Source: Thelephora terrestris (lineage: Eukaryota; Basidiomycota; Agaricomycetes; Thelephorales; Thelephoraceae). Taken from it: DNA of 64,000 nt. The stretch is taken from contig WIUZ02000008.1 in assembly GCA_015956445.1 (NCBI GenBank), positions 124,001-188,000 of the forward strand, read 5' to 3'. Shown one piece after another: positions 6,433-62,028 of the stretch. Below the pieces are notes generated by a model. The model worked only from the letters and a program-made list of their open reading frames with translations. It ran no database searches and was not told where the DNA came from. The translations under genes and the position numbers were made by a program. The stretch's first letter is position 1. Each line of letters begins with the position of its first letter.

Positions 6433-9400
6433 ACGATAGCTGGTTTGCCAGAAGCGCTGACTCAAACCTACGGTCCTATGTCAAAGGAGAACACGACATG
6501 TCCGGAATCGTCACTGCGAACCCCGGAGGAGATACTATTAGATCGGTCGCTGTTGATCCGTACTCAAACAGGATTGCGGTCACATCTGAGTAGGTTGCGC
6601 CACATATCTCATACCAGTGCTCAAGTTATCATGTCATAGTGACAAGGCGGTCAAGGTCATTGACCTCCAGGATACCAAAAATATTGTGTTATTGGAAGGC
6701 CATACGAGGGGCGTGAGACGAGCGTCCTGGCATCCTTCTGGAACTCTTCTCGTACGTTTCTATCCTCACTGCAGTAGATTCTATCTGATTCTTAAAAACC
6801 GTGATAGGCCACCTGTGGTTGTGACGGGAAGATCATTATCTGGGACGTCTCAGGCGCAGAACCAAAACTCGAGAAAACGATCGAAGGGATCATTCCCACA
6901 GTAATTGATACTACCAGTATGTGTATGTAGACGTTGTCACGTCACAATCTCACCCAGATCTCCTCCAGGGCTCCAGAATACTGTCATGACTGTTCGGTAT
7001 CATGGCATCCAGCCGGGCAATACTTCGTGGTGGCCACGCGGGCCCACGGTTCGTTCGTTTCGTGCCCTCCCTTTCCCCCTCAGGTGTTCTGATTGAGTGT
7101 CCCAGAGATCATTTCCGTTTCGAAGTCTACGTGGTCGAAGTCGACAACATACACATCTGGTGATCTATCTGGTGCAATTACCGCCCTATGTCTTTCACCC
7201 AATGGCGCGTACCTCGCATCTGCCTCGAAATCAGGTGTCTTCATCTGGTCGACACAAGACCGGAAAATCAAATACCGATTCAACGAACCGCAGGTTGCTA
7301 CGGTCACACAGATCGTATTCTCTCCCTCTAGCAATCTCCTCGCGTGGACGGATATGGATGGATCGTTAACTAGATGGAAAGACCCGATACCGAAGGACGC
7401 CCCTAGCCCACATGAAGTGCAAAAAGTTGAGCAAACGATTCGATCCAGGGCAAGGGCCGTGCTGTTGGGAGAAGCCACGGACGATATGGTGGACGACGCA
7501 GCTGGTGAAAATGAAAAGGGACCAGATTTTGACCTGGACGATGACATGCTGATGGACGATGACTTTGTCGTCGATGACCTCGGAGGTGGAATGTTAGACG
7601 ACGAGCCTGAGGTAGATAAGTGGAAGGGTGAGGGTGTGCGAGAAATGGGTAAGGCATTCAAACTTGCACGTCCAGCTTCAGGTCGAGCTAAGGTCCTTTT
7701 CAGTTAGCGTGACGAAGGCGCAACCCCCATTCAAACCCGGCGCCACGCCTATGGAGGGCAAGCGGAGATACCTGGGTGCGCATACAAGCTCACGGGCAGA
7801 TCGAACTTGACCTGATTCGTCTGAACTTCAGCCTTCAACATGATCGGCGTGATCGAGGCGACTGACCAGGATACCCACCACATCGTAAACGTCGAGTTCC
7901 ACGACAAATCCGCGAGGAAGAGCTACCATTTCACCGATTACTTCAAGTACGACTTGGCCACTCTCGGTGAGGTGATCTCCGCTTGTATCGCTCCGCATCT
8001 CGGGTTTAACATCACCTGTTAGGTGAGCGTGGTGCGGTGTATTCCTGTCCTCCTGATGGGGACCATACGGCACACGTCGCGTACAAACCCTACGGTTCCT
8101 GGGCGACGCAAGGCGAATGGACATACGACCTACCTCCCGGGACTAAAGTCATCGGCCTCGCGGCTGGCGGTCCACCCCCTCGCAAATCCCTCCTCTCGAA
8201 GTCTGATGTAGACATTCAAGGTAACGGAAACGTCGTGGTCGCCACGACAGAAGGCGACTTGACCTTCCTCTCCGGTGGAGGAGTCGAGAGGTGGTTGATG
8301 GGGTTCGAAGGAGAGTTCGTTTCGATGGTGGCGGGTAACGAATGGCTGTTCGTGGTATTTCGGGATGGGTCAACTAGCATGGACGGGTCGCAAAACCTGA
8401 AGTGCCAGTTGATCCGTTTTGCGGACTTCACAGTTGTTCAAGACAAGCGGCTACCGTTGTTGAAGGGGCACACCCCGAAGTGGATAGGGATCAACAGTGA
8501 CGGGGTTTGTTTTGAGTGTCCTTGTCGATTGCCATTGAGCTGACAGGTTGCGCTCAGGCTCCGTGTGTCTATGACTCTGCAGGGCACTTGCACGTTATGC
8601 ATCACTTTAGTATTCCTGGAAGGTGCACGTGGGCGCGGGTACTGGACGCTCAAAGGTTAGAGCGGCGGAAGGGAAAGGGTGAGACCTACTGGCCGGTTGG
8701 GGTGACGGATGGAAACCTTATGTATCTTATCTTAAAGGTCTGTGATTTCCTCCCGTGATTTGTGCTTGAATATGGAACTGATGTACAATTAGGGAAGGCA
8801 AGAACATCCAGGCTGGCCAAGGCCTCTCATCCAAGACCTCCCACTTTGTATGCCGTTCCGGAGGACAGATCCGAAGGAGGGGCCCATGGAACAACAGTAG
8901 GTTGTCTCCCTCCGTTTTTTGGGTGGCCGCGTCGACATGATCTGGTAGGTTTGCCATCGAGACGCTCCACCTCGACGCTCTTCGGGACGCACTTGGTCCT
9001 GATGAACTGGCTTCCGACGAGATCGCAGCGAAAGAGCTCGAGCTCGGATAAGGTCGTTATCCAGCTGATTCAGAACGGCTGCAAGAACGATAAACTTCAT
9101 CGGGTGTTGGATCTGGTTAAGATGCTGCATCACACCACATCATACGACATGGCCACCAAAGTTGCTGGGTTCTACCATCTCATTGGTCTGCAGGAGAAGA
9201 TCGAGATTCTCAAAGCGGATCGTGAGGAAGGCGGGGATGAGGAGGATGAGTATGGGGTCGAACCAAGGGAGGTTGCGAGAAGGAAACGAGAACAGTGGAG
9301 GAAGGAGGGGTCTGGGACCGTTTTACCGCCTCGTCCGATCGGGGGACCGTCAAGGTCTGGAGGGTACAACGGGGCACAGGGGGCTTTTCAAGATTTTGGG

Positions 9401-11115: not shown

Positions 11116-14100
11116 CTACTGAGGGAGTAGATGGCTGAAGTCAAGAATGAACACCTTTCTTGGAAAAAAGCACATGTACAAAGATTGGTTTTTCCATTTC
11201 ACATCAGCAGGGGAGCCATATCCCTTAGCTAGCTGAAAGAGCACCTTTCCAGTATCTACATCTTGAACCCTGTCTTGAACAAGGTTCCACATTATGGTGC
11301 CACTAGGGTGAAGTTTACTTGGGGGTATGTTGGACAGTTGAATAGGTGATGATCCTGGGATCCCAAACTCCCACCCGGAATTCTCCCCATAGCCAGTCCA
11401 GACTCTTGAGCCATCCAGGTGTAGGGTACTGTGTTCTCCAGAACTCTCTATCATATCTTCAACCTCTCCTGTCCACAAGGATAATACTAGGATAGGCCCA
11501 GACTCTTCTTTAAAAAAGATTTTAGACCCAGCTTCTGATATTTCAGCCTTAGATCCCCGGGAAATATTGCTAAAATGCTTGTGCCAGAGGAGCTCTTGTC
11601 TGTCAACATCTGAAAGAGTGACATCTTTGTCTTTCCACTGGACAATGATCAACTTGTCACCAGCTAGCTGGGCCTTATGATTGTAGCCCTTAATTCCAGT
11701 TTGAAAGGATCCCTTACAGTGGCCAGTCAAGATGTCCCAGATCTCCACCACCCCATCAATATCACTTGTGATGACAGTGTGATTGTTTACATGCAAATGG
11801 ACAGAGATGGTTTGAGCTGGGGAGGGGGAGGATGCATCCTTTGGATCAGAAATGACTGGCTTTGTTGAAGAGTCCCCAATCCGCCAGAATTTGAGTTTAT
11901 AAGAGTTTGAGACAAGAGTGGAGGGTGAGGTAAATTCAAGGGCAAGAACAGTATCGCAAATGAAAGTCTCAATGGGGTGGGAAGTTGAGTTTGTGATTTC
12001 CCACACATAGATGATGTGACCAACTGCTGCTGCAATAAGCTTGCTGTCAGGGGAGAAACAACAGGCTCTGACCTCCCTCTCATTAGGATGGAACTCAGCC
12101 ACAGTTTCCCCTGACCTGAAGTCTTTAACTGTAACAACTCCATCATAGCACAGAGCTAACTTGGTACCATCCAAGGAAAAGGCAACACAAGTGCCCCCAG
12201 ACTCCTCTCTAATCTGGTGACCATTGATATCCCAATGCTTGAGTTCCCCATGAGACATAGACATGAAGTACTGGGGGTCCATAGGATGAAAGATAACTTG
12301 GAAAACTGGCTCCCCCTGTGTTATTTGAAGGCAACACTCCCCTGTTTGGACACTCCACAAATGGATTGCCTGATCAGACCCAGAAGCAATCATCGCAGAG
12401 TCTGCAGAGATGGAAACAGACAGGATCTCCCCTGTAGGGCTAATGAAGGTCTTTATGGTTCCACCTGTCTGCACGTCCCAAAGTTCGATGGTCCCATCTA
12501 AACACCCAGATACAAGCAATGCTCCATCTAGTGAGAAGGTGACATAAATCACCCCATGCTCATCCCCAGAAAGAGCAGCTGTTTGACTACCAGTGATCGC
12601 ATCTAGGATCACAATCCCTTCCGTAATGACAACTGCAATTGTGTTCTTCCAGCTTGAGAAGGCAAATGAAGGACCACCAAAGTCAACTGTACGATAGCAT
12701 GATCCCCACTCAGCTGGAAGCCCATTGGCTACCTTCACCCCGTCTAGGATCTCTGCACCATAATCCTTTTGGAGCCATGATGAGGAGGGGCAGAATGGGA
12801 GGGCGGAATGGTATATATGGGATGGGGAATCCTTGATGGTGTCAAAGTGTTCCAATAGAAAGTGTTGGGCATCATTGGTCCATGTGCATGGAATCCCTAC
12901 CTGAAATAATTGTCAACAATCTACTGATTAAACATCCTAGACAGTACTCACTGAAGTGCACCACTGCTCAACATCATTCATAGCATAGACCCCAGCATCA
13001 AGGTTCCGTGAGAGTATGAGGACTTCTATCCAATGCAACAATCTTTTGGTGAAGAATTCCTTGATTTCTTTCTCTAATTCCCCAATAGCTGGGCTGTCCT
13101 TGGGGATTTCCAGAAGGTGTTTTGTCCAAAATTGACATGCATATTCCAGAGCATCCCCAATAAATTCCTTTCTGTGGCTAGGAAGCTCCTCGACCTCACT
13201 GAGAAAAGCATAGTCATTCAAGTTGCAGATATTCTTCTTCAGCTTTTCTTTCATCAGACCCAAGCATAACAGTGAGATTTTTGCATGATAAATTTTTTGA
13301 TCCACAAAAAACCACTTTTTACTGCACCGCTTGGAATCCATAAGGAAGTCAGGAAATGACTTGTGAAAGACACGGATCGGCTCTCCTATTCTTTCTGCAC
13401 CTGGGATAAGGAGGAGAGAATTGAGGGAAGACAGAGTGGTGGAAACTTTATTGTTTGATATTCTGAGGAGTTCTGAGAGTGCCCCCATTGGAAGAGAGTT
13501 AAACACAAGTAGCACTGCCCCAACCACAGTCTTGAAACAAGAGTAGATTTCCTCCTTATCGTCATCATCTGCCTCCACATCACCAACTGCTTGCTCAAGA
13601 ACCTGAGTGTATAGGGAGTCAATTCCCTTCCCTTCATTGGCAATTCTTTGTGGGAGGAAGACAACCTGGTCCAGTTGTTCAGTGGGTATGCGGCTTGGGG
13701 ATGCCACAAACTTGACCACAACTGAAGCATAGATGAAGAATCCTGCTGCCTTTTTGCAAAGAATGTTGATGTCAGATGACTTGGGCCAGTCTTGTGGGAA
13801 GGTACAGTTATTCCGTGATTTGGTGATTTCAGCTAGCCGAGTCCTGAAGAACAGCCTGATATCGCTCTCCACTGAAGATGGCTCAACCTCGTGCAGCTTG
13901 AAGACTTCTGTGGTGGGTTCAAGGGATTCAAGATGGAACCCCTCACTGATTCGAGGTTCAGGGCGACCAGTGATGAGGAACTTGACACTGGGGATCTTGT
14001 CCACATAGCGGGAGAGCACTGAGAGGATTGCAGAGGCAGGTTCGTTGTCTTGACACTCATCAAGAGCATCGATGATAATGAGGGTGGGAATTTGTGTGGC

Positions 14101-15556
14101 CTGGAATGGCTCAACAATGAGCTTCTCCATTTGAGAACAAAGTGACTCCCGCCCAACATCATGGCTAGTTGTCAGGACTGGGAGCAAGGCCTCGCGGAAA
14201 AGTGGATACTGATAGGCGAGCTGGAATGCTAGGGTGGGGAAGATTGATCGAAGGTTGCTTCTGTCTTCAAAATTTCGTGAACAGAAAAAGCTCGCCCCAA
14301 GCTTCCCATCTGCAAAACTTGTCTCTGCAAATGTCTGGGCTATGGTTGACTTCCCAGTTCCTGCGAGACCATTGAGCCAGAACACATGTTTATCCTCTTG
14401 GCCATTCAACCAGTTCTCCAGGTGATTGAGAATATCCCGCCTTGTGCCCTTCATACATCCCTGCCTGTCTCCACAGAGGTACCCAGCGTTGGTGACGTGA
14501 TACATGCGGTCGAGAAGGGCGAGGTCTGATCTCTCCTGTTCTCTTGTCATCACGTGTAAAAAGATGGAATTAGGGGACAAACTGACAATGAGCATAGAGT
14601 TCTTTTTATAGATGTCTTGTTGCAATGAGGTCTGAAAAAGGTGTTGGTCAAGGCGGGGGTAAGGACTCCAAGGACAAACCTGGTACTCCATGATAGCATC
14701 TCGAATATCCTCTACCAAGCCAGCAAGTCTATCAGCGTTCTTGACGTTCTTGATGAAACCCTCCACATTGCCTTGTTTCGTCAATGAATCGAGTTCCCTG
14801 GCAACGTTGTTGAGTTTTCTAATGTTCGATGTTCGTCAGACTCGGTCCGCAATACAGGAGAGCACAGGGCCTACTCTTCCAGAAATTTCCTCCTGGATTT
14901 TTCCTTGATATCATCCTGGTGATCGGATGCACAAAGCGAATCGGCGAGTGCTCCGACGCGGCGCGCCAACGATTCCATCGATTGCTCGTTTGCCTCCGTT
15001 CGCTTGTGCGCTCGTAAGCTTTTTGAAGGACGGGCGAAAGAGTTTAACGTACCTCGTAGTTGTCTAGGAAATAGCAGAGACCCCCTGCAACAGATTTGAG
15101 CGGACCAAAAGCATCCGCAGATTCGTTGACCCCACGGAGGATGAACTTGGCCCCGGAAGAGGCGAGGGACTTGAGGTGCGACTTTTTCTCATCTGTAGCG
15201 CCTGCCTTGACGACAGGATCAGAGGACCCCGGACCTGCGCTTTCTCCTTGTTTAAGAACAGAGCGGAATAGACCAGCATCGGCCGGGTGGCCTGGGTCAT
15301 GCGAAACAAGCACATTTAGATGGGTCGCTCAAGAAGCAATCGCCAACGTACCATCGCGTCCTTGATCACCAGAGGTCGAGGGACCAGACACTGGTGAAGT
15401 TGAGTCGTCAATCCGTAGATCTGGAGTCGACTGGGTGCGACGTGGCAGTGGCTCGGTCAGGTCAGCTCCGCTCGGGTCTTCGATGACCTCGCTCCTCGCT
15501 TTGCTTCGACTACGGTGAGGCCATTTAGGTATACAGAGAAGATCTCGCAATCCCAT
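11116..15556 (-). CDS. NACHT-WD40 NLR-like protein (about 1407 aa)
   Basis: STAND-type P-loop NTPase of the fungal NLR-like class, a family tied to programmed cell death and allorecognition. The specific ligand is unknown. Five exons keep frame throughout: 15352-15556, 15053-15291, 14875-15002, 12952-14818, 11116-12900; all introns are GT-AG, 50-60 nt. The N-terminal region has the usual LKSVAGGLCYFLDNYE helix of basidiomycete NLRs, followed by a coiled-coil-like stretch. The Walker A motif GLAGTGKST is near residue 341 and the Walker B LIIIDALDE near 435. After a helical linker the motif SHIYHSALPFCPSSSW introduces about 590 residues of WD40 repeats (WDVQTGGT, LWSVQTGE). The protein ends after HLLPQ. 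The 5' half and promoter are duplicated at the left edge of the window, where the copy is broken. Confidence 0.92.
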
Positions 15557-39653: not shown

Positions 39654-39741
39654 GCATTAATGGGGTAGTGGTAACCTGGGTCGTTGCCACCAAACGGCGC
39701 GCAGCGTCGACCCGCCGGGGGTTCGATTCCCTCTTAATGCA
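39654..39741 (+). tRNA. tRNA-Gly (GCC) with 17-nt intron
   Basis: Cloverleaf read by eye. Acceptor stem GCATTAA pairs with TTAATGC (39734-39740, 7 bp), with discriminator A. D arm is GGGT/ACCT with loop AGTGGTA. Anticodon stem GGTCG (39679-39683) pairs with CGACC (39708-39712). The anticodon is GCC at 39686-39688. An inferred intron at 39690-39706 follows the base 3' of the anticodon, the canonical site. T arm is GGGGG/CCCTC with loop TTCGATT. A T-run at 39745-39751 fits a Pol III terminator. Mature length is 71 nt before CCA. Confidence 0.88.
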
Positions 39742-53762: not shown

Positions 53763-55970
53763 ATGACTCGTTTCTCTGAATCTGAGAACGAACGGTCCCC
53801 AACCACTAGGAATGAGGAATTCTTCCCCTATACTGGTTCCTATTTGGAACTACCTTCCCCTAACAGATCACGTGCTCCACGTACATTCAATGGAGAACCT
53901 CACAGTCTGGAACCTTTCCTGGAAACCTATGAACACCTCTGTGAACGTTACAGGATCATTGCATCCAGAGAAAAGTACCAGGGACTTGTCAGGTATTGCA
54001 GTGACAAGGTAGCTCGGAAACTCCGGAGCTTGCCTTCCCATGCCAATAGAGATTATATTGAACTCTTGAAGGATTTAGAATACTTCTTTGGAGAAAAAGA
54101 AGTATGCCTAAACATGGGAAAAATCGAGGGATTTACAGCTAAATGGAGACAACACAAGATGCGTACTCTCCATGACTTCAAGAAGTACCAGTTAGATTTT
54201 TGGAAACTGGTAGGCTTAGCTAAAGAGAAGAAGAGAATCTCCAACAGGGAGGTTCGCAGATACTTCTGGGAAGGACTGAATGGGTCCCTCAGAAGGCAGC
54301 TGGAATCACATATGAGAATGGTGAACCCAGATTTGGACGTAACCATCCCATTTGAGATCTCAGACATTGAAAGAGCTGCAAACTCTGTTCTCAACCCAAA
54401 TAGGTTTGACCAGCACCTCACAACTAGGACTGGGTATGATTTCTCTGAATCAGACTCAGACTCAGATCCAGAAGACGACAAAGACAAAGAGAAAGGATAC
54501 AGTTCAGAAGACGAATCTGATGTTGAAGTAAAACCCCTTACTCAACGAAGAACACCCCCTACCCCTCCCAAGACACCCCCTAGATCCAAGAAGCGTAAAG
54601 GCAAAGGCGACAGAGACCTTAACAAGCTTGTTGAAGAGATGAGCAGCTTAAAGATAACTGAACCTGAGTACTTCGTTAAGTATGTTCATCTCGTCAGAGA
54701 ATATCCTGAGCTTAAAGACGTAGTGGAAGCGCCTGCAAGACAAGGTGCCAACAAACCCTTTAGGCAAAATGGACAGTTTCAGAGAGACCTTCCTCCCCAT
54801 CAGCAATTTAATAATCCACCTCGACAACCATTCAACTTCTCCTCTCAACAACGTTTCAACCCAACATCTCAACAATCAGGGAAACCCCCTCAGCAATCAT
54901 ACTCTCTGGGAACAGGGTCCAATGCCATTGGACAGAATTTCACCTGCTTTGGTTGTGGAGAACAAGGACACCACATTAGGAATTGCGAAGAGATAGACAA
55001 GTTGGTTCAGAAAGGTAAGGTAGCCAGAGAACCAATCAGTGGTAGACTCAGACGACCTGATGGATCACGAATTATCCGTTCTCAAGATGAAACCTGGGTT
55101 CAAGCAGTTAAACGTGAAGTAGCAGAAGTGCATTTCACGGAAATTATAGCATATGAGCCTAGTGTAGATTTAACGGACAATTATCTAGAAGTGGAACGCG
55201 AAGAAGATGATGCTAGCTCAGATGAGCAAGAAGAATTAGGATGGGCCTCTGGGCAAGTAGCTAACTATCAAGCTTATGGAGTACAAAGGACACAAGGCAT
55301 CACTAATGTTCATCGTAAAGAAGCAGCTCGAGGAATCTTACCTAGCGGACCCCAAGGAATGAAGAAATTCCCCAGGAGTGACAAAGCACAAGGTTTGGGT
55401 AGGAAGGAAATCCCCATCAACCCAGGCGTCAACCTTAATGCCAACAAGGCAGGGAACCCCAAAGGAATGGGTACCGTAGACATCAACAAGAGCGTAGTTA
55501 AGTTGAAACCTAATGAACAAACGGTGCCAATGGATGTTGATAAGGCAGTCCTGATGAAACCTGGTAAGGGTTTTAGGAAGGAGCCTGCGCATCAACTTAA
55601 GCCCAACATCGTCAAAGTCACTAATCCCGGGCCTACAGGAAGAAATTGTTCAGAAATTACTAATGAAATTCTGAGCACTCCAGTTACCCTAACTGTACAG
55701 GAGATAGTGAATAATTCGCCTTTTTTGCGACGAGGCCTAGCGACCGCAATGAGACCACATCGTGAGGTTTTAGGCCCAACTCAGGAGAAAACAGGCTTTG
55801 TCGGAGAGGTTTACGAGGACCATAATATGGACCCATCTGATGAAGACATGTCAATCCAGGAAGAAGATGACGAAGAAGAAAACTACCTCAATGATCGAAT
55901 GCTAGAACCTCAGATAAACCAGGACAGAGGAGATCTGTTGAAAATTCCAGTAAAAGTAGGAGAGGCCTAA
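53763..55970 (+). CDS. Retroelement Gag-like protein with CCHC zinc knuckle (735 aa)
   Basis: Gag-like protein of a basidiomycete Ty3/gypsy-type element. It starts at 53763. The N-terminal part has the capsid-like block RAPRTFNGEPHSLEPFLETY followed by DFKKYQLDFWKLVG and RRYFWEGL, as in retrotransposon gag domains. A Ser/Asp-rich linker and a Gln/Pro/Phe-rich region follow. The zinc knuckle CFGCGEQGHHIRNC lies near residue 400. The C-terminal 300 residues are acidic and disordered. The frame stops at UAA (55968-55970), directly followed in the same frame by the AUG of the protease ORF. Codon use is AT-rich, unlike the host genes nearby. Confidence 0.88.
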   Translation: MTRFSESENERSPTTRNEEFFPYTGSYLELPSPNRSRAPRTFNGEPHSLEPFLETYEHLCERYRIIASREKYQGLVRYCSDKVARKLRSLPSHANRDYIELLKDLEYFFGEKEVCLNMGKIEGFTAKWRQHKMRTLHDFKKYQLDFWKLVGLAKEKKRISNREVRRYFWEGLNGSLRRQLESHMRMVNPDLDVTIPFEISDIERAANSVLNPNRFDQHLTTRTGYDFSESDSDSDPEDDKDKEKGYSSEDESDVEVKPLTQRRTPPTPPKTPPRSKKRKGKGDRDLNKLVEEMSSLKITEPEYFVKYVHLVREYPELKDVVEAPARQGANKPFRQNGQFQRDLPPHQQFNNPPRQPFNFSSQQRFNPTSQQSGKPPQQSYSLGTGSNAIGQNFTCFGCGEQGHHIRNCEEIDKLVQKGKVAREPISGRLRRPDGSRIIRSQDETWVQAVKREVAEVHFTEIIAYEPSVDLTDNYLEVEREEDDASSDEQEELGWASGQVANYQAYGVQRTQGITNVHRKEAARGILPSGPQGMKKFPRSDKAQGLGRKEIPINPGVNLNANKAGNPKGMGTVDINKSVVKLKPNEQTVPMDVDKAVLMKPGKGFRKEPAHQLKPNIVKVTNPGPTGRNCSEITNEILSTPVTLTVQEIVNNSPFLRRGLATAMRPHREVLGPTQEKTGFVGEVYEDHNMDPSDEDMSIQEEDDEEENYLNDRMLEPQINQDRGDLLKIPVKVGEA

Positions 55971-56951
55971 ATGACTGGAATATTTGACAGTGGATCTCAG
56001 CTCAACATCATAAGCCAGGAATTGGCTGAGAGCGCCGGAATACCTTGGTTAACAGCTGATAAATACCAAATTCAGTTAGTTTCAGTCGATGGTAACCTGA
56101 CCAAATGCGCCGGAATGGTACCAATGGCTGAGATGATAATCCAAACTGATGATGGACCAGTATCAACCAGAGGTAACCTGTTTGTTAAGCCCCATGCTGG
56201 ATTCCAGTTGCTCCTAGGAAGACCCTGGGGACGACGGAATCGAGCCCATCTCTTTGAAGACAAAGAAGGGTCAAGAATAGCATTCTTAACTAAGACAGGG
56301 TGGCACAACATAACCCCTCTTGCTAATCTAAGAAAGACAAGTAACCCTGGGCAACTGCCCAAAAGGAAGCAAAGGCAAACAGCACAAGTCTATGCTGCTC
56401 AAGGATCCCATACCATCGAAGAAGGAGAGGTACCTGAGACAGAAGCAGAAGAAGAAGAAGAGTACGATTTTGAGAGCAATAATGCCTACATTGGCTCTCA
56501 AGCCCTGGAAGACAGAAGAGAAGATTTCCCCTACACACCTCTGAATATTGGAGAGATAGAACCCCCTACCCCGGCACAGCGTCGAATGATTATAGAGATT
56601 GAAGATGAAGAAGATGAAAGGGAAGAAGAAGAGAACAGAGAAGTTCAAGCACCAGAGAACCCGAGAAATGCACCGGAAACGAGCAACCCAACAGAAGAAG
56701 AAACCGTTGATTCGGAACTCTATGAAACATTTATTGATAAGGTACTAGACGGTGTATCTAACCAAGAATGGAATGAGTTTCAGGGATTAATGGCACAGGA
56801 AAAGCAGCGCGACGAAAAACGATGGAAGAGGCTATGTAAGAAGGAAACTAGCCCAGAAGCAATGGATCAGGATGACTCGGACTCAAGTGACCAACGGAAC
56901 GAAGAATGGAACGAAGAAATCGAGCCGTCGCAAACCCTAGCTACCCAGTAG
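55971..56951 (+). CDS. Retropepsin-like aspartic protease ORF (326 aa)
   Basis: Aspartic protease domain of the same retroelement, in frame with gag and starting immediately after its stop. The catalytic motif is GIFDSGSQLNIIS (DSG at about residue 6). The flap and second half read ISQELAESAGIPW, GFQLLLGRPWGRRNR and HLFEDKEGSRIAFL, typical of Ty3/gypsy retropepsins. After residue 120 the protein is Glu-rich and disordered. The last Gln codon and the stop TAG lie in the first bases of the palindrome (from 56946), so the original C-terminus and any reverse transcriptase, RNase H and integrase are missing. The copy is non-autonomous. Confidence 0.85.
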   Translation: MTGIFDSGSQLNIISQELAESAGIPWLTADKYQIQLVSVDGNLTKCAGMVPMAEMIIQTDDGPVSTRGNLFVKPHAGFQLLLGRPWGRRNRAHLFEDKEGSRIAFLTKTGWHNITPLANLRKTSNPGQLPKRKQRQTAQVYAAQGSHTIEEGEVPETEAEEEEEYDFESNNAYIGSQALEDRREDFPYTPLNIGEIEPPTPAQRRMIIEIEDEEDEREEEENREVQAPENPRNAPETSNPTEEETVDSELYETFIDKVLDGVSNQEWNEFQGLMAQEKQRDEKRWKRLCKKETSPEAMDQDDSDSSDQRNEEWNEEIEPSQTLATQ

Positions 56952-57039
56952 TCCTTATCATAATTGTGTACAATTTACTGCCAGATCTCGTAAAATTGTA
57001 ATACTTTAACTCGTAGCGATTACAATGCTCAATGGCATT

Positions 57040-57102
57040 GCAATGCTGCCTGTGGCAGTTGCAATGCTGCCTGTGGCAGTTGTAATGCTGCCTGTGGCAG
57101 TT
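57040..57102 (+). repeat. Tandem 21-bp repeat, 3 copies (2 in right arm at about 60755-60797)
   Basis: The unit GCAATGCTGCCTGTGGCAGTT contains its own inverted repeat CTGCC-TGT-GGCAG. One unit fewer in the right arm accounts for most of the outer length difference between arms. Confidence 0.85.
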
Positions 57103-57164
57103 GCAATACCAGCTGCTCGGTACTCCTGATTAGGCAGGAGCCGACAATGTGGTAGCACCGAGTG

Positions 57165-57700
57165 ACTGGGTGTGCTTATATAAGTGAGTCATGTGATTTT
57201 TCCAAAAAAGGAAATTTTGATGGCTTATATAAGCAGGTCAGGTGACTGAAAAAAGTGGGAGTTGCTGATGTAAGCAGATCATGTGACTGACCAAAAAAGG
57301 AAATTTTTGATGGCTTACATAAGCGACTTGAAAATGATTTTGGCATTGAATTTCCCAAAGAGGAAATTTTGATGGCTGACATAAGCAGGTCATGTGACTG
57401 AAAAAAGTGGGTGTTGCTTATGCAATCAGGTCATGTGACCGTCCAAAAAAGGAAAGTTTTGATGGCTTACATAAGTGTCTCAAAATTGCTTTTGGAGGGG
57501 TCTTTCCTAAAAAGGAAATTCCTTTTTAGGAAATATTTGATGGATTACCAAAAAAGGAAATTTTGATGGCTTACATAAGCAGCTCAAAAATGCTTTTCAC
57601 AAAAATTACCGAAAAAGGAAATTTTGATGGCTTACATGAGCAACTCAAAAATGATTTTGGCAAAAATTACCAAAAAAGGAAATTATATGCCAGAAAAATC
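57165..57700 (+). repeat. Degenerate repeats of about 50-60 bp (GGAAATTTTGATGGCTTA... ) in left arm
   Basis: At least seven imperfect units share GGAAATTTTGATGGCTTA followed by CATAAGC. Several add a TCATGTGAC box. The mirrored set is at about 60170-60690 in the right arm. Confidence 0.8.
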
Positions 57701-58019
57701 GGAAAAATGCCAGAAAAATCTTAAAAAATACCGAAAAAATTCCCACAGGTCTAGAAAGTGCCCAAAATGGTAAATTACTCCCAGAAATATCCAGAAAATT
57801 GTTTTTCTGGCTGGAAAAATCATGAAAAATTCCAGAATATAGATAAATATTTGATAAAAATTATTCCAATTTTTTTGGTCCATTGAATAGCCCATAATTG
57901 TAATATTAATATATTTTTTGCCCAAAAAATTCATAAAAATCCCAAAAAAATAAATCAAAATAGGAAAATACAAATATATCCATAATATTCATTATATCAT
58001 GAAGTACAGACCAGTTTGT

Positions 58020-58367
58020 GGTCATAAACTAGCCCTAAACCTAGTCCTGGACCTAACCTAACCTAACCTAGCCTAACTCTAGCCCTAACCCTAACCCTAA
58101 CCTAGACCTAAACCTACACCTAACCTAACACTAAACCCAACCTAACCTAACCCAACCTAACCTAACCTAACCCAACCTAACCTAACCTAACCTAAACCTA
58201 ACCTTAACCTAACCTAACCTAACCTAACCCCAAACCTAACCTGCCCTATATCCAGCCTGCCCTAAACCTAACCTAGCACCAAACCTAAACCTAAACCTAA
58301 ACCTAAACCTAAACCTACATCTAAACCTAACCTGCCCTAAACCTAACTCTGACCTGGCCTAGTTCAG
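58020..58367 (-). repeat. Telomere-like CCTAA/CCCTAA tract, left arm
   Basis: Dense CCTAA, CCCTAA and CCTAAA units, including three consecutive CCCTAA near 58081-58100. The G-rich strand is the minus strand, so TTAGG runs leftward, away from the palindrome centre. Confidence 0.85.
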
Positions 58368-58371
58368 CCTT

Positions 58372-58412
58372 GTCTTATCTTATCTTATCTTATCTTATCT
58401 ATCTTATCCTGT
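58372..58412. repeat. CTTAT repeats, left arm
   Basis: Five-base CTTAT units in tandem. The mirrored GATAA tract lies at about 59388-59428. Confidence 0.75.
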
Positions 58413-58863
58413 CTTACCTACCCTAGACCCAACCTAACCTGACATAGTCAACTTAGCCTAGTCCACCACAGATCACCCAACCTAACCTAAAGTGGTTCAC
58501 CTGACCTAGACTGATGCAACTTGAGTTTATCTCTTCTAATCAGCTGTAATCTTATCTGGCCTTAATCCAAATACCGTAGCTAACCAACATCTAACCCAAC
58601 TTCACCTGGCTCACCAGCAAGTAACTGGGCTACAGGAACACACTGTGAACTGCACTATCCCATATCCTGTATCCAACTGTCACTCAAACACAAGAACTGT
58701 GGTGGACCTACAAGTTAGTGGACCCATAAGCCCACAGACCCACAAGTATAGGCTGCTCACTCAGTGGAGACATCTGTTATCCAACCTCACCCACGTACCA
58801 CCCTCACCCTGTGTTCTGTGCCAGAGTGCAACTTCACCACAGCTCAAGTTCAACCACCTGGCT

Positions 58864-58936
58864 GAACCTGTAAGTCAGGTTGATAGACTGTTGGTTATGG
58901 ATCCATGGATTTGTAGACCTGATTGTACATGGGCTT
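58864..58936. other. Palindrome spacer (73 nt)
   Basis: The only extended non-symmetric sequence between the two arms. It contains a short palindrome around GGATCC (ATGGATCCAT) and no ORF of its own. Confidence 0.8.
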
Positions 58937-59432
58937 AGCCAGGTAGTTGAACTTGAGCTGTGGTGAAGTTGCACTCTGGCACAGAACACAGGGTGAGGGT
59001 GGTACGTGGGTGAGGTTGGATAACAGATGTCTCCACTGAGTGAGCAGCCTATACTTGTGGGTCTGTGGGCTTATGGGTCCACTAACTTGTAGGTCCACCA
59101 CAGTTCTTGCGTTTGAGTGACAGTTGGATACAGGATATGGGATAGTGCAGTTCACAGTGTGTTCCTGTAGCCCAGTTACTTGCTGGTGAGCCAGGTGAAG
59201 TTGGGTTAAATGTTGGTTAGCTACGGTATTTGGATTAAGGCCAGATAAGATTACAGCTGATTAGAAGAGATAAACTCAAGTTGCATCAGTCTAGGTCAGG
59301 TGAACCACTTTAGGTTAGGTTGGGTGATCTGTGGTGGACTAGGCTAAGTTGACTATGTCAGGTTAGGTTGGGTCTAGGGTAGGTAAGACAGGATAAGATA
59401 GATAAGATAAGATAAGATAAGATAAGACAAGG

Positions 59433-59830
59433 CTGAACTAGGCCAGGTCAGAGTTAGGTTTAGGGCAGGTTAGGTTTAGATGTAGGTTTAGGTTTAGGTT
59501 TAGGTTTAGGTTTAGGTTTGGTGCTAGGTTAGGTTTAGGGCAGGCTGGATATAGGGCAGGTTAGGTTTGGGGTTAGGTTAGGTTAGGTTAGGTTAAGGTT
59601 AGGTTTAGGTTAGGTTAGGTTAGGTTGGGTTAGGTTAGGTTAGGTTGGGTTAGGTTAGGTTAGGTTGGGTTAGGTTAGGTTAGGTTGGGTTAGGTTAGGT
59701 TAGGTTGGGTTAGGGTTAGGTTGGGTTTAGTGTTAGGTTAGGTGTAGGTTTAGGTCTAGGTTAGGGTTAGGGTTAGGGCTAGAGTTAGGCTAGGTTAGGT
59801 TAGGTTAGGTCCAGGACTAGGTTTAGGGCT
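59433..59830 (+). repeat. Telomere-like TTAGG/TTAGGG tract, right arm
   Basis: Mirror of the left tract, about 61 bp longer through extra copies of a 20-bp higher-order unit TTAGGTTGGGTTAGGTTAGG. The G-rich strand runs rightward, away from the centre. Confidence 0.85.
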
Positions 59831-60865
59831 AGTTTATGACCACAAACTGGTCTGTACTTCATGATATAATGAATATTATGGATATATTTGTATTTTCCTA
59901 TTTTGATTTATTTTTTTGGGATTTTTATGAATTTTTTGGGCAAAAAATATATTAATATTACAATTATGGGCTATTCAATGGACCAAAAAAATTGGAATAA
60001 TTTTTATCAAATATTTATCTATATTCTGGAATTTTTCATGATTTTTCCAGCCAGAAAAACAATTTTCTGGATATTTCTGGGAGTAATTTACCATTTTGGG
60101 CACTTTCTAGACCTGTGGGAATTTTTTCGGTATTTTTTAAGATTTTTCTGGCATTTTTCCGATTTTTCTGGCATATAATTTCCTTTTTTGGTAATTTTTG
60201 CCAAAATCATTTTTGAGTTGCTCATGTAAGCCATCAAAATTTCCTTTTTCGGTAATTTTTGTGAAAAGCATTTTTGAGCTGCTTATGTAAGCCATCAAAA
60301 TTTCCTTTTTTGGTAATCCATCAAATATTTCCTAAAAAGGAATTTCCTTTTTAGGAAAGACCCCTCCAAAAGCAATTTTGAGACACTTATGTAAGCCATC
60401 AAAACTTTCCTTTTTTGGACGGTCACATGACCTGATTGCATAAGCAACACCCACTTTTTTCAGTCACATGACCTGCTTATGTCAGCCATCAAAATTTCCT
60501 CTTTGGGAAATTCAATGCCAAAATCATTTTCAAGTCGCTTATGTAAGCCATCAAAAATTTCCTTTTTGGTCAGTCACATGATCTGCTTACATCAGCAACT
60601 CCCACTTTTTTCAGTCACCTGACCTGCTTATATAAGCCATCAAAATTTCCTTTTTTGGAAAAATCACATGACTCACTTATATAAGCACACCCAGTCACTC
60701 GGTGCTACCACATTGTCGGCTCCTGCCTAATCAGGAGTACCGAGCAGCTGGTATTGCAACTGCCACAGGCAGCATTGCAACTGCCACAGGCAGCATTGCA
60801 ATGCCATTGAGCATTGTAATCGCTACGAGTTAAAGTATTACAATTTTACGAGATCTGGCAGTAAA

Positions 60866-62028
60866 TTGTACACAATTATGATAAGGACTACTGCGGGAAA
60901 GAGCCCGACCGCGAGTACTGGGGCGCCAAGATCAGCCACGAGCTTGAGGAACGCAAGTACCGAGCCTCGAAACTCCTGGCGTCGAAGGAGAAGGAGGCTG
61001 AGGAAGGAGAAAAGATGAGAGGAAGGAAGAGGGAAGTGGACTACGAAGGAAGGAAGGAGAAAAGAGTTAAAGAAGAAGAACGAGACGAGTTCGGCAACCG
61101 AGCCTACACGGCTGGCGATTGGTTTCCCGACGTCCAGGCCCCTCCTTACCCAAGCGATAATGAAGAAGAAGAAGAAGGCGCTTACCTGGACAAGATCCCG
61201 GGACCCTCGGAACGTGGCACGTCTGACCCACCGTCCTCCCCCGAACCTGACGACTTTGAGGACATCGCGACACGAGTCTCGATGCTTGAAGATCGCGTGT
61301 ACGCCACGACCGAAAGCCTCAAGGAGAAGATCACCTCGCTTGAAGATCAAGTTTTTGCCGACGGATGCCTGCTTACCGAGCTCCAGTGGAAGATAAACGA
61401 AGCCAGGAGGGCCGATAATGAGCAGCGCGCAGACCAGATTAGGATGAATCGCCGACAGGACCCTAGGGTAACTCACCGATATCTGACACGATCAGTGACA
61501 GCTGCCGAAGGACGGACCCTAGACACGAAGAAGGTGATCGCAAGAATTAGCGGGGAAATTAAGACTTTGGAAGGAAAGATCGAAGACACCCGTGCCGAGA
61601 TCACGTCAATCAAAGGCAAGATGGATTCGGTGCTGTGTTTGGCGCCCGACATCGAGAAACTCGCTAAGGTCGTCGAGGAAAATTACAAGATCCAGAACAA
61701 GACGACTGCAGCCCTATGGGAAGAGTTGGACTCCCTCAAGAATGTCTACGGCCCATCGACTCTCACCGCCCTCAAGGATCATTCCCTCGATATCGCCGTT
61801 CTCGCCTCCCGCTTCCAATACCTCTACCAGGTCGTAATTTCCGCCATATATTCCGCTAACGCCCGCCCATCAAACCAAGATTGCGCCACCCAGGATTCCC
61901 CTCACCCTCATGCTAACCCTACTGTCAAGACTGTGTCCGCGTTTAACGTAAGAAACGCCACCCCTATCCACCTCACTCGTTTATTGACGTCCAACCCACC
62001 TCGTGCGCCTTATCAACCCGACCCGTAA
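60866..62028 (+). CDS. Coiled-coil protein, 5'-truncated at the palindrome edge
   Basis: Open frame from about 60866; the first ATG is at 61015 (337 residues from there). Codons between the palindrome edge and this ATG read as protein (CGKEPDREYWGAKISHELEE), so the true start was probably lost upstream. A basic, charged N-terminus (RGRKREVDYEGRKEKR) is followed by an acidic stretch. A long heptad-like coiled coil runs through residues about 90-240 of the ATG-started form (SMLEDRVYATTESLKEKITS, ISGEIKTLEGKIEDTRAEI). A Pro/Asn-rich tail ends the protein. Family unknown. It may be an ORF1/gag-like protein of another element or the 3' part of the gene begun at 51126. Confidence 0.55.

Follow-up and report, generated by a model that had tools for sequence, protein, structure and literature searches.

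How a near-perfect palindrome of several kilobases, a structure that is expected to be unstable, can persist in a genome is the question raised by a 64,000-nucleotide stretch of Thelephora terrestris DNA (assembly GCA_015956445.1, contig WIUZ02000008.1, positions 124,001 to 188,000; hereafter the window, numbered from its first letter). An earlier note, made from the letters alone, drew attention to a palindrome at 56946-60893 and proposed that it is recent, maintained by gene conversion or an active foldback-type element. It is now evident that this palindrome is one copy of a dispersed, non-autonomous, foldback-type DNA transposon family, that many members of the family are flanked by 7-bp target-site duplications (TSDs), and that the two arms of nearly every copy compared evolve in concert. 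The copy in the window, moreover, occupies the place of about 3.6 kb of a retroelement.

The coordinates and the description given in that note hold. The arms consist of inverted-repeat blocks of 141, 249, 854 and 735 nt with 98-100% complementarity, and the element aligns with its own reverse complement over all 3948 nt at 94.4% when gaps are counted. A spacer is present between the arms, measuring 63 nt by the inverted-repeat tool rather than the 73 nt proposed. With the innermost 120 nt of each arm left out, 2 substitutions separate the arms over 1753 aligned positions, and the insertions and deletions between them lie mostly in tandem repeats, those of the CCTAAC/TTAGGT type being the main place where the two arms differ in copy number. 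Given both kinds of difference, the mirror symmetry of the arms is not exact. The listing of open reading frames (ORFs) holds none of at least 100 aa wholly within the element, in agreement with the statement that it encodes no transposase.

The genome searched for relatives comprises 40.6 Mb in 60 contigs (below, C numbers denote contigs and L labels denote fetched genome stretches). The outer 115 nt of the window element gave 24 genome matches, mostly arranged as facing pairs, and a 15-mer search found 24 exact occurrences of its terminus, CAGTAGTCCTTATCA. When one mismatch was allowed, 130 matches were obtained against 30 for the reversed control; 100 of the 130 represent a second form of the terminus, CAGTAGTCCTTATTA, which occurs exactly 100 times in the genome (control, 0). 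In short form, the ends of the family read CAGTAGTCCTTAT. Listing by exact ends gives 55 facing pairs and 14 single ends, and L020 and L047, in which a single exact end has an inexact partner, bring the total to 57 pairs, so that the search for further copies of the arm suggested in the earlier note uncovered a family. Complete copies are palindromes measuring about 2.4-4.3 kb; nested insertions make some of the copies longer, and deletions make some shorter.

The flanks of these copies reveal how they came to be where they are. Among the 49 copies with both borders read (8 further pairs were left out), 21 carry an exact 7-bp TSD, while L012 matches at 6 of 7 positions and L039 has a duplication of 8 bp. 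Pairing the flanks of different copies as a control produced no exact 7-bp match in 2352 combinations, and the palindromes are thus foldback-type DNA transposons, as the earlier note had offered for one of its options. No position of the 21 target sites exceeds 0.18 bits. Long, internally repetitive inverted repeats form most of the element, as in the foldback class, and the family shows the dispersed copies, constant ends and fixed-length TSD of that class; the window copy itself is without a TSD. The check for one at 56946/60893 turned out negative, AGCTACC standing outside on the left and CGGGAAA outside on the right. The foldback identity is read from sequence, and present-day activity of the element would be a further step.

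Several observations adjoin those on the family. The flanks of L010, L011, L014, L021, L023, L033, L040, L041, L042 and others are shared repeats, and with many CAGTAG copies lying in such repeats, insertion into other mobile elements seems to be common. A third palindrome type, with the ends CAGCTGAGAAAATA.. (CAGCTG type), is present at L050:312-2574 and L051:204-2466; the two are 99.9% alike, and part of the arm is about 83% like the window element. At L019:937-3904 lies a 2.97-kb palindrome unrelated to the family, whose arms are 99.8% alike; it is joined to what is left of a CAGTAG element, one half.

Some sequencing methods have difficulty with palindromes, and in one copy, L031, the flank is mirrored as well; an assembler that mirrored or homogenised the arms could have produced such pictures. 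The chance that the family is an artefact of this kind appears minimal. Distinct unique flanks with matching 7-bp TSDs border 21 of the 49 copies, the repeat number is unequal between the arms of one copy, and every copy has its own variants. Given the unequal tandem-repeat numbers and the matching TSDs, mirroring by the assembler across the family is unlikely.

The history of the arms was studied in 25 copies, 2-5 kb in length, for which both ends were available. From each arm the 120 nt adjoining the spacer were left out, together with everything beyond 1280 nt in L014; this masking was chosen after inspection of the arm alignments, in which the inner-end mismatches of L021, L025, L027, L038 and L042 are spacer. 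In 23 of the 25 copies, each arm resembles its partner more closely than it does any arm from another copy. Summed over these 23, the arms show 34 mismatches in 35,875 aligned positions (0.095%), and the distance to the nearest arm of another copy ranges from 0.39 to 13.5%, with a median of 1.43%. In the unmasked comparison the arms are closest to each other in 22 of 25 copies, L014 dropping out through its non-palindromic inner part. In a tree built by maximum likelihood from the first 1150 nt, where some of the forks concerned are modestly supported, the arms are sisters by copy in 23 of 25, all except L020 and L047. Substitutions private to one copy are often present in both of its arms (53 in L012, 22 in L022, 21 in L038 and 15 in L037), and in these four copies those confined to a single arm number 0-1 per arm. 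The two arms of a copy therefore evolve in concert, and the suggestion of maintenance by gene conversion proved largely right, in that the arms look maintained by arm-to-arm copying. L020 and L047 are chimeras of arms of different origin. L014, with 90.7% arm identity, was also considered as a chimera and dropped, since the difference is confined to the inner, non-palindromic part and the outer part is matched (2 differences in 1246).

The scarcity of arm differences throughout could also be expected of an ordinary young burst of miniature inverted-repeat transposable elements (MITEs), the arms being alike merely because all copies are recent. This is most improbable given that copies stand far further from one another than the two arms of a copy do, and that copy-private substitutions sit in both arms. 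Further, a different element in the same genome displays the appearance of inherited arms. This palindromic MITE of 725 nt (CACTGGGGGCAA..TTGCCCCCAGTG) was found at L012:4538-5262, with TAA on both sides, at L018:6797-7521 and at L019:7030-7754. Its arms are merely 90-91.5% alike within a copy, and each arm of the L012 copy finds its best match in the arm on the same side of the other MITE copies (92.4% and 93.0%). By contrast with the foldback family, it shows no within-copy arm matching.

A second alternative is that the arms are renewed at transposition, the excised or replicating strand folding back and one arm serving as template for the other, so that each insertion is born perfect and then ages. 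The 11 of 25 copies with zero arm differences once the spacer side is excluded would agree with it, all the more as L012 and L022 are among them though 13.5% from the nearest other arm. It is nevertheless considered unlikely in view of three kinds of copy. In L044 the inner part is matched and the outer part unmatched, which a single renewal would not give, and in L031 the mirrored flank lies outside the element. Copies without a TSD, rearranged or abnormally inserted, are mostly matched too, as seen in the window copy, L014, L023, L025, L026 and L041.

The first two of these cases may preserve traces of arm-to-arm copying. All 10 arm differences of L044, a copy without a TSD, are confined to the outermost 453 nt, and the 1.2 kb that follows inward has none, a distribution that random placement would produce about twice in a million for this case, which was picked after looking. 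This inner 1.2 kb differs by about 2% from the copy nearest to it, and the break looks like the border of a conversion tract. In L031 the arms are identical over 1643 nt (100%) and the outside flanks are mirrored over all 200 of the 200 nt read (L031:1-200 and 7863-8062), as if copying from one arm had run beyond the end of the element, or as if an assembly error had occurred. The terminal types TATCA and TATTA could carry a similar record. In the one pair compared, L039 and the window copy, the inner part is 86-89% alike, and the outermost 264-333 nt cannot be aligned past the first 13 nt, in both arms alike. Given that the outer parts differ in the same way on both arms, either a one-sided change spread to both sides or both sides changed.

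What the palindrome interrupts can be read from other copies of its surroundings. Outside the window, the left flank matches four copies in the genome (five rows of matches) and the right flank six (seven rows). In the four copies with both flanks, the left match takes in a single base of the element, stopping at window position 56946, and the right match begins at 60894; between them lie 3633 nt in the copy on C45 and 3586 nt in each of the three on C56. Since the left and right flanks recur at this spacing in the other copies, both flanks of the palindrome belong to one retroelement family, and the palindrome has replaced about 3.6 kb, exactly end to end. The setting in the earlier note, a palindrome abutting a truncated gag-pro element and cutting a coiled-coil ORF, is thus borne out in its parts but has to be revised as a whole, the two sides being one interrupted element. 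It was also rightly seen that the left end completes the protease ORF: CAGTAG, the first six bases of the palindrome, forms the last Gln codon and the stop of ORF 55971-56951. The gag ORF gave six hits, the only named relative among them being from Trametes cingulata at 27% identity. The replaced 3.6 kb was at first assumed to be pol, an assumption that was dropped: Integrase_H2C2 matches of equal score follow the right flank at a distance of 5-8 kb downstream, both in the window copy (C59:191475, outside the window) and in five of the other six, with none listed there for the C45 copy, and the lost 3.6 kb is therefore not the integrase.

The exact coincidence of the replaced stretch with both palindrome ends suggests one of two courses. 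An element end may have become joined to another site close by, or a single retroelement may have received two copies at a distance of about 3.6 kb, which then recombined and deleted what lay between. The second course is given somewhat less than an even chance. L020 and L047, both without a TSD, show that arms of different origin do become combined, and with several family members in shared repeats, two in one retroelement are possible. Two insertions would be needed in one retroelement copy, however, against one event for end joining, and the matched window arms would mean that the hybrid has since been smoothed out or that both copies were alike. A genome search for the reciprocal partner ends of the window flanks found none, its sole match being letters mixed from both degenerate halves, and neither course strictly requires another end with reciprocal 7-mers. 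The retroelement family that surrounds the window copy also houses a second CAGTAG element, at a different point (C8:92063, L045), of which the 5 kb read showed one end and not the other.

With no transposase encoded in the window copy, the source of mobility must be sought elsewhere. Among the copies examined none encodes one of its own; KDZ and hAT dimer domains were searched genome-wide, and the P type was not searched for. The genome holds 125 KDZ-domain matches (exon pieces counted singly), several forming near-identical pairs, and by comparison of coordinates none of those listed falls between paired family ends. In L052, the one KDZ locus read, there is no exact CAGTAGTCC and there are two 9-mers with one mismatch. 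Three weak hAT dimer-domain matches were obtained genome-wide, none between paired ends, other hAT domains lying outside the search. The longer pairs at C59:930941, C59:1544967, C60:500118, C23:2669771 and C56:1986918 hold no KDZ or hAT dimer match, their interiors being otherwise unread. The 10.2-kb pair C2:262655-272844 was tried as the autonomous parent and rejected, for the Mutator-like (MULE) transposase inside belongs to a separate nested element. This MULE (L015, L016) has the ends GGACAGACGGCGG and its own 9-bp TSD, AATTAAGTT, and is nested at the centre of a CAGTAG palindrome; it includes a SWIM-type zinc finger region, and a second transposase copy on C60 (L049) is 98% identical. The transposase of this MULE thus does not belong to the family ends, and the palindromes have TSDs of 7 bp, not the 9 bp of Mutator-like elements. 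The 8.0-kb pair L029 contains a 1514-aa ORF that by eye reads as a Copia pol. In L030-L033 and L043 longer ORFs recur among the loci and resemble parts of other repeats; no transposase was recognised in them by eye, no Pfam search having been made of them.

Palindromes of the Y chromosome are fixed chromosome segments, unlike the dispersed mobile palindromes described here. In them gene conversion keeps the inverted arms alike (PMC3403216), as is proposed here for the family. Galileo of Drosophila, a foldback-like element of the P superfamily, shares with the family its long, internally repetitive inverted arms, TSDs of 7 bp and rarely 8 bp, terminal inverted repeats (TIRs) that are 98-100% alike within a copy, and chimeras with non-matching 7-bp flanks, and its authors propose inverted TIR extension through templated repair (PMC3573991, PMC4168063). 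In the fungal family the arms extend to about 2 kb and take up almost the entire element, whereas the longest Galileo TIRs in the D. mojavensis paper measure about 1.26 kb; the host is a fungus, and the 21 sites show nothing like the GTANTAC target of Galileo. By its reported features Galileo is the closest analogue, to which the fungal family is similar in working, and no kinship is claimed.

Other systems share single features. Kyakuja of the KDZ group, reported from Agaricomycotina, combines CA..TG ends with a 7-bp TSD, as the family does (PMC12730594). Its two families described in that account have no TIRs and encode a transposase, whereas the palindromes here are all arm and encode none. 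The ends and TSDs fit Kyakuja best, and membership is an unproven conjecture, given the absence of TIRs from the described Kyakuja and of any listed KDZ match between paired ends. KDZ1-KDZ3 of Cryptococcus are basidiomycete KDZ elements with inverted ends, as here, but measure 9-11 kb, with TIRs of 139-241 bp, TSDs mostly of 8 bp (4-8) and a transposase (PMC12810828). The hAT7 elements of rust fungi provide a 7-bp TSD in fungi (PMC12730594), against which this genome has only the weak hAT matches mentioned above. Tm1 of root-knot nematodes (Mutator/Foldback) has composite foldback ends of variable length and non-autonomous forms, but a 9-bp TSD and asymmetric terminal motifs (PMC3169594). No comparable fungal family came up in our literature searches, which is no proof of absence.

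Overall, the explanation that we regard as probable combines a foldback family, arm-to-arm copying after insertion and replacement of about 3.6 kb of a retroelement by the window copy. A non-autonomous palindrome inserts with a 7-bp TSD, its transposase presumably supplied from elsewhere; after insertion each arm would serve as a template for the other, gene conversion in place between the inverted arms being the likeliest mechanism. Such copying would keep both ends matched and might sometimes run into the flank, or a copy might recombine with another copy. The loss of the 3.6 kb in the window would have followed by one of the courses discussed. Several points weigh against this explanation. 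Shared private substitutions are few or none in some other copies than the four named above (window 2, L009 1, L021 0), tandem-repeat number is still unequal between the arms of one copy, and the arms of L020 and L047 are unlike (15.2% and 8.0%), without a TSD, so that copying is not universal. The mirrored flank of L031 stands alone and may reflect an assembly error, the distribution in L044 was tested once the pattern had been noticed, and three copies, two of them one duplication, make up the MITE contrast. A TSD is missing from 26 of the 49 copies (L012 not counted), and no transposase was found for the family in the KDZ and hAT dimer searches, which did not extend to the P type. What was seen is the outcome to be expected of conversion, not the process itself.

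At least 57 paired palindromes are thus dispersed in 40.6 Mb despite their expected instability, and 23 of the 25 compared have stayed matched while diverging from the others. The family is a natural experiment, with many palindromes of separate histories in one genome, and would permit direct tests of palindrome persistence, the frequency of arm copying and the co-evolution of transposon ends. It also documents rearrangement at such elements, in the form of chimeras, of the mirrored flank of L031 and of the replacement of about 3.6 kb in the window. It could tentatively be supposed, on rather less than even odds, that the palindrome itself is the lineage's means of survival, arm copying repairing mutations and transferring changes between ends. 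If so, new terminal sequences would appear at both ends together, subfamilies with matched ends (TATCA, TATTA and perhaps the CAGCTG type of L050 and L051) would arise from one body, and it would be explained how two transposon ends stay matched while changing.

Table. Features of the palindromic element and of the interrupted retroelement around it (window positions).
Feature	Position	Strand	Remarks
Whole palindromic element	56946..60893		3948 nt, CAGTAGTCCTTATCA...TGATAAGGACTACTG; inverted-repeat search, self-alignment, family matches
Left arm	56946..58868	+	inverted-repeat blocks
Spacer between arms	58869..58931		63 nt by inverted-repeat tool
Right arm, inverted copy of left	58932..60893	-	2 substitutions in 1753 aligned positions
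Left terminus CAGTAGTCCTTATCA	56946..56960	+	exact 15-mer match
Right terminus, same 15-mer on minus strand	60879..60893	-	C59:184879-184893
Direct repeat of 152 nt, two copies, left arm; mirrored in right arm	57199..57502	+	
CCTAAC-type short tandem repeats, left arm	58038..58336	+	TTAGGT-type in right arm, about 59436-59823
ORF of 735 aa, gag-like, weak zinc-knuckle match (below Pfam cut-off)	53763..55970	+	left part of interrupted retroelement
ORF of 326 aa, weak aspartyl-protease match (below Pfam cut-off)	55971..56951	+	last codon and stop from palindrome
Right part of same retroelement family	60894..62028	+	contains coiled-coil ORF 61015-62028; 3586 or 3633 nt after left part in four other copies

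Elsewhere in the window, an Rfam scan gave no match, and ARAGORN placed a sole tRNA gene, tRNA-Gly (gcc), at 39654-39741. Two long minus-strand ORFs lie at 11116-14784 and by eye resemble a NACHT-type NTPase followed by WD40 repeats.

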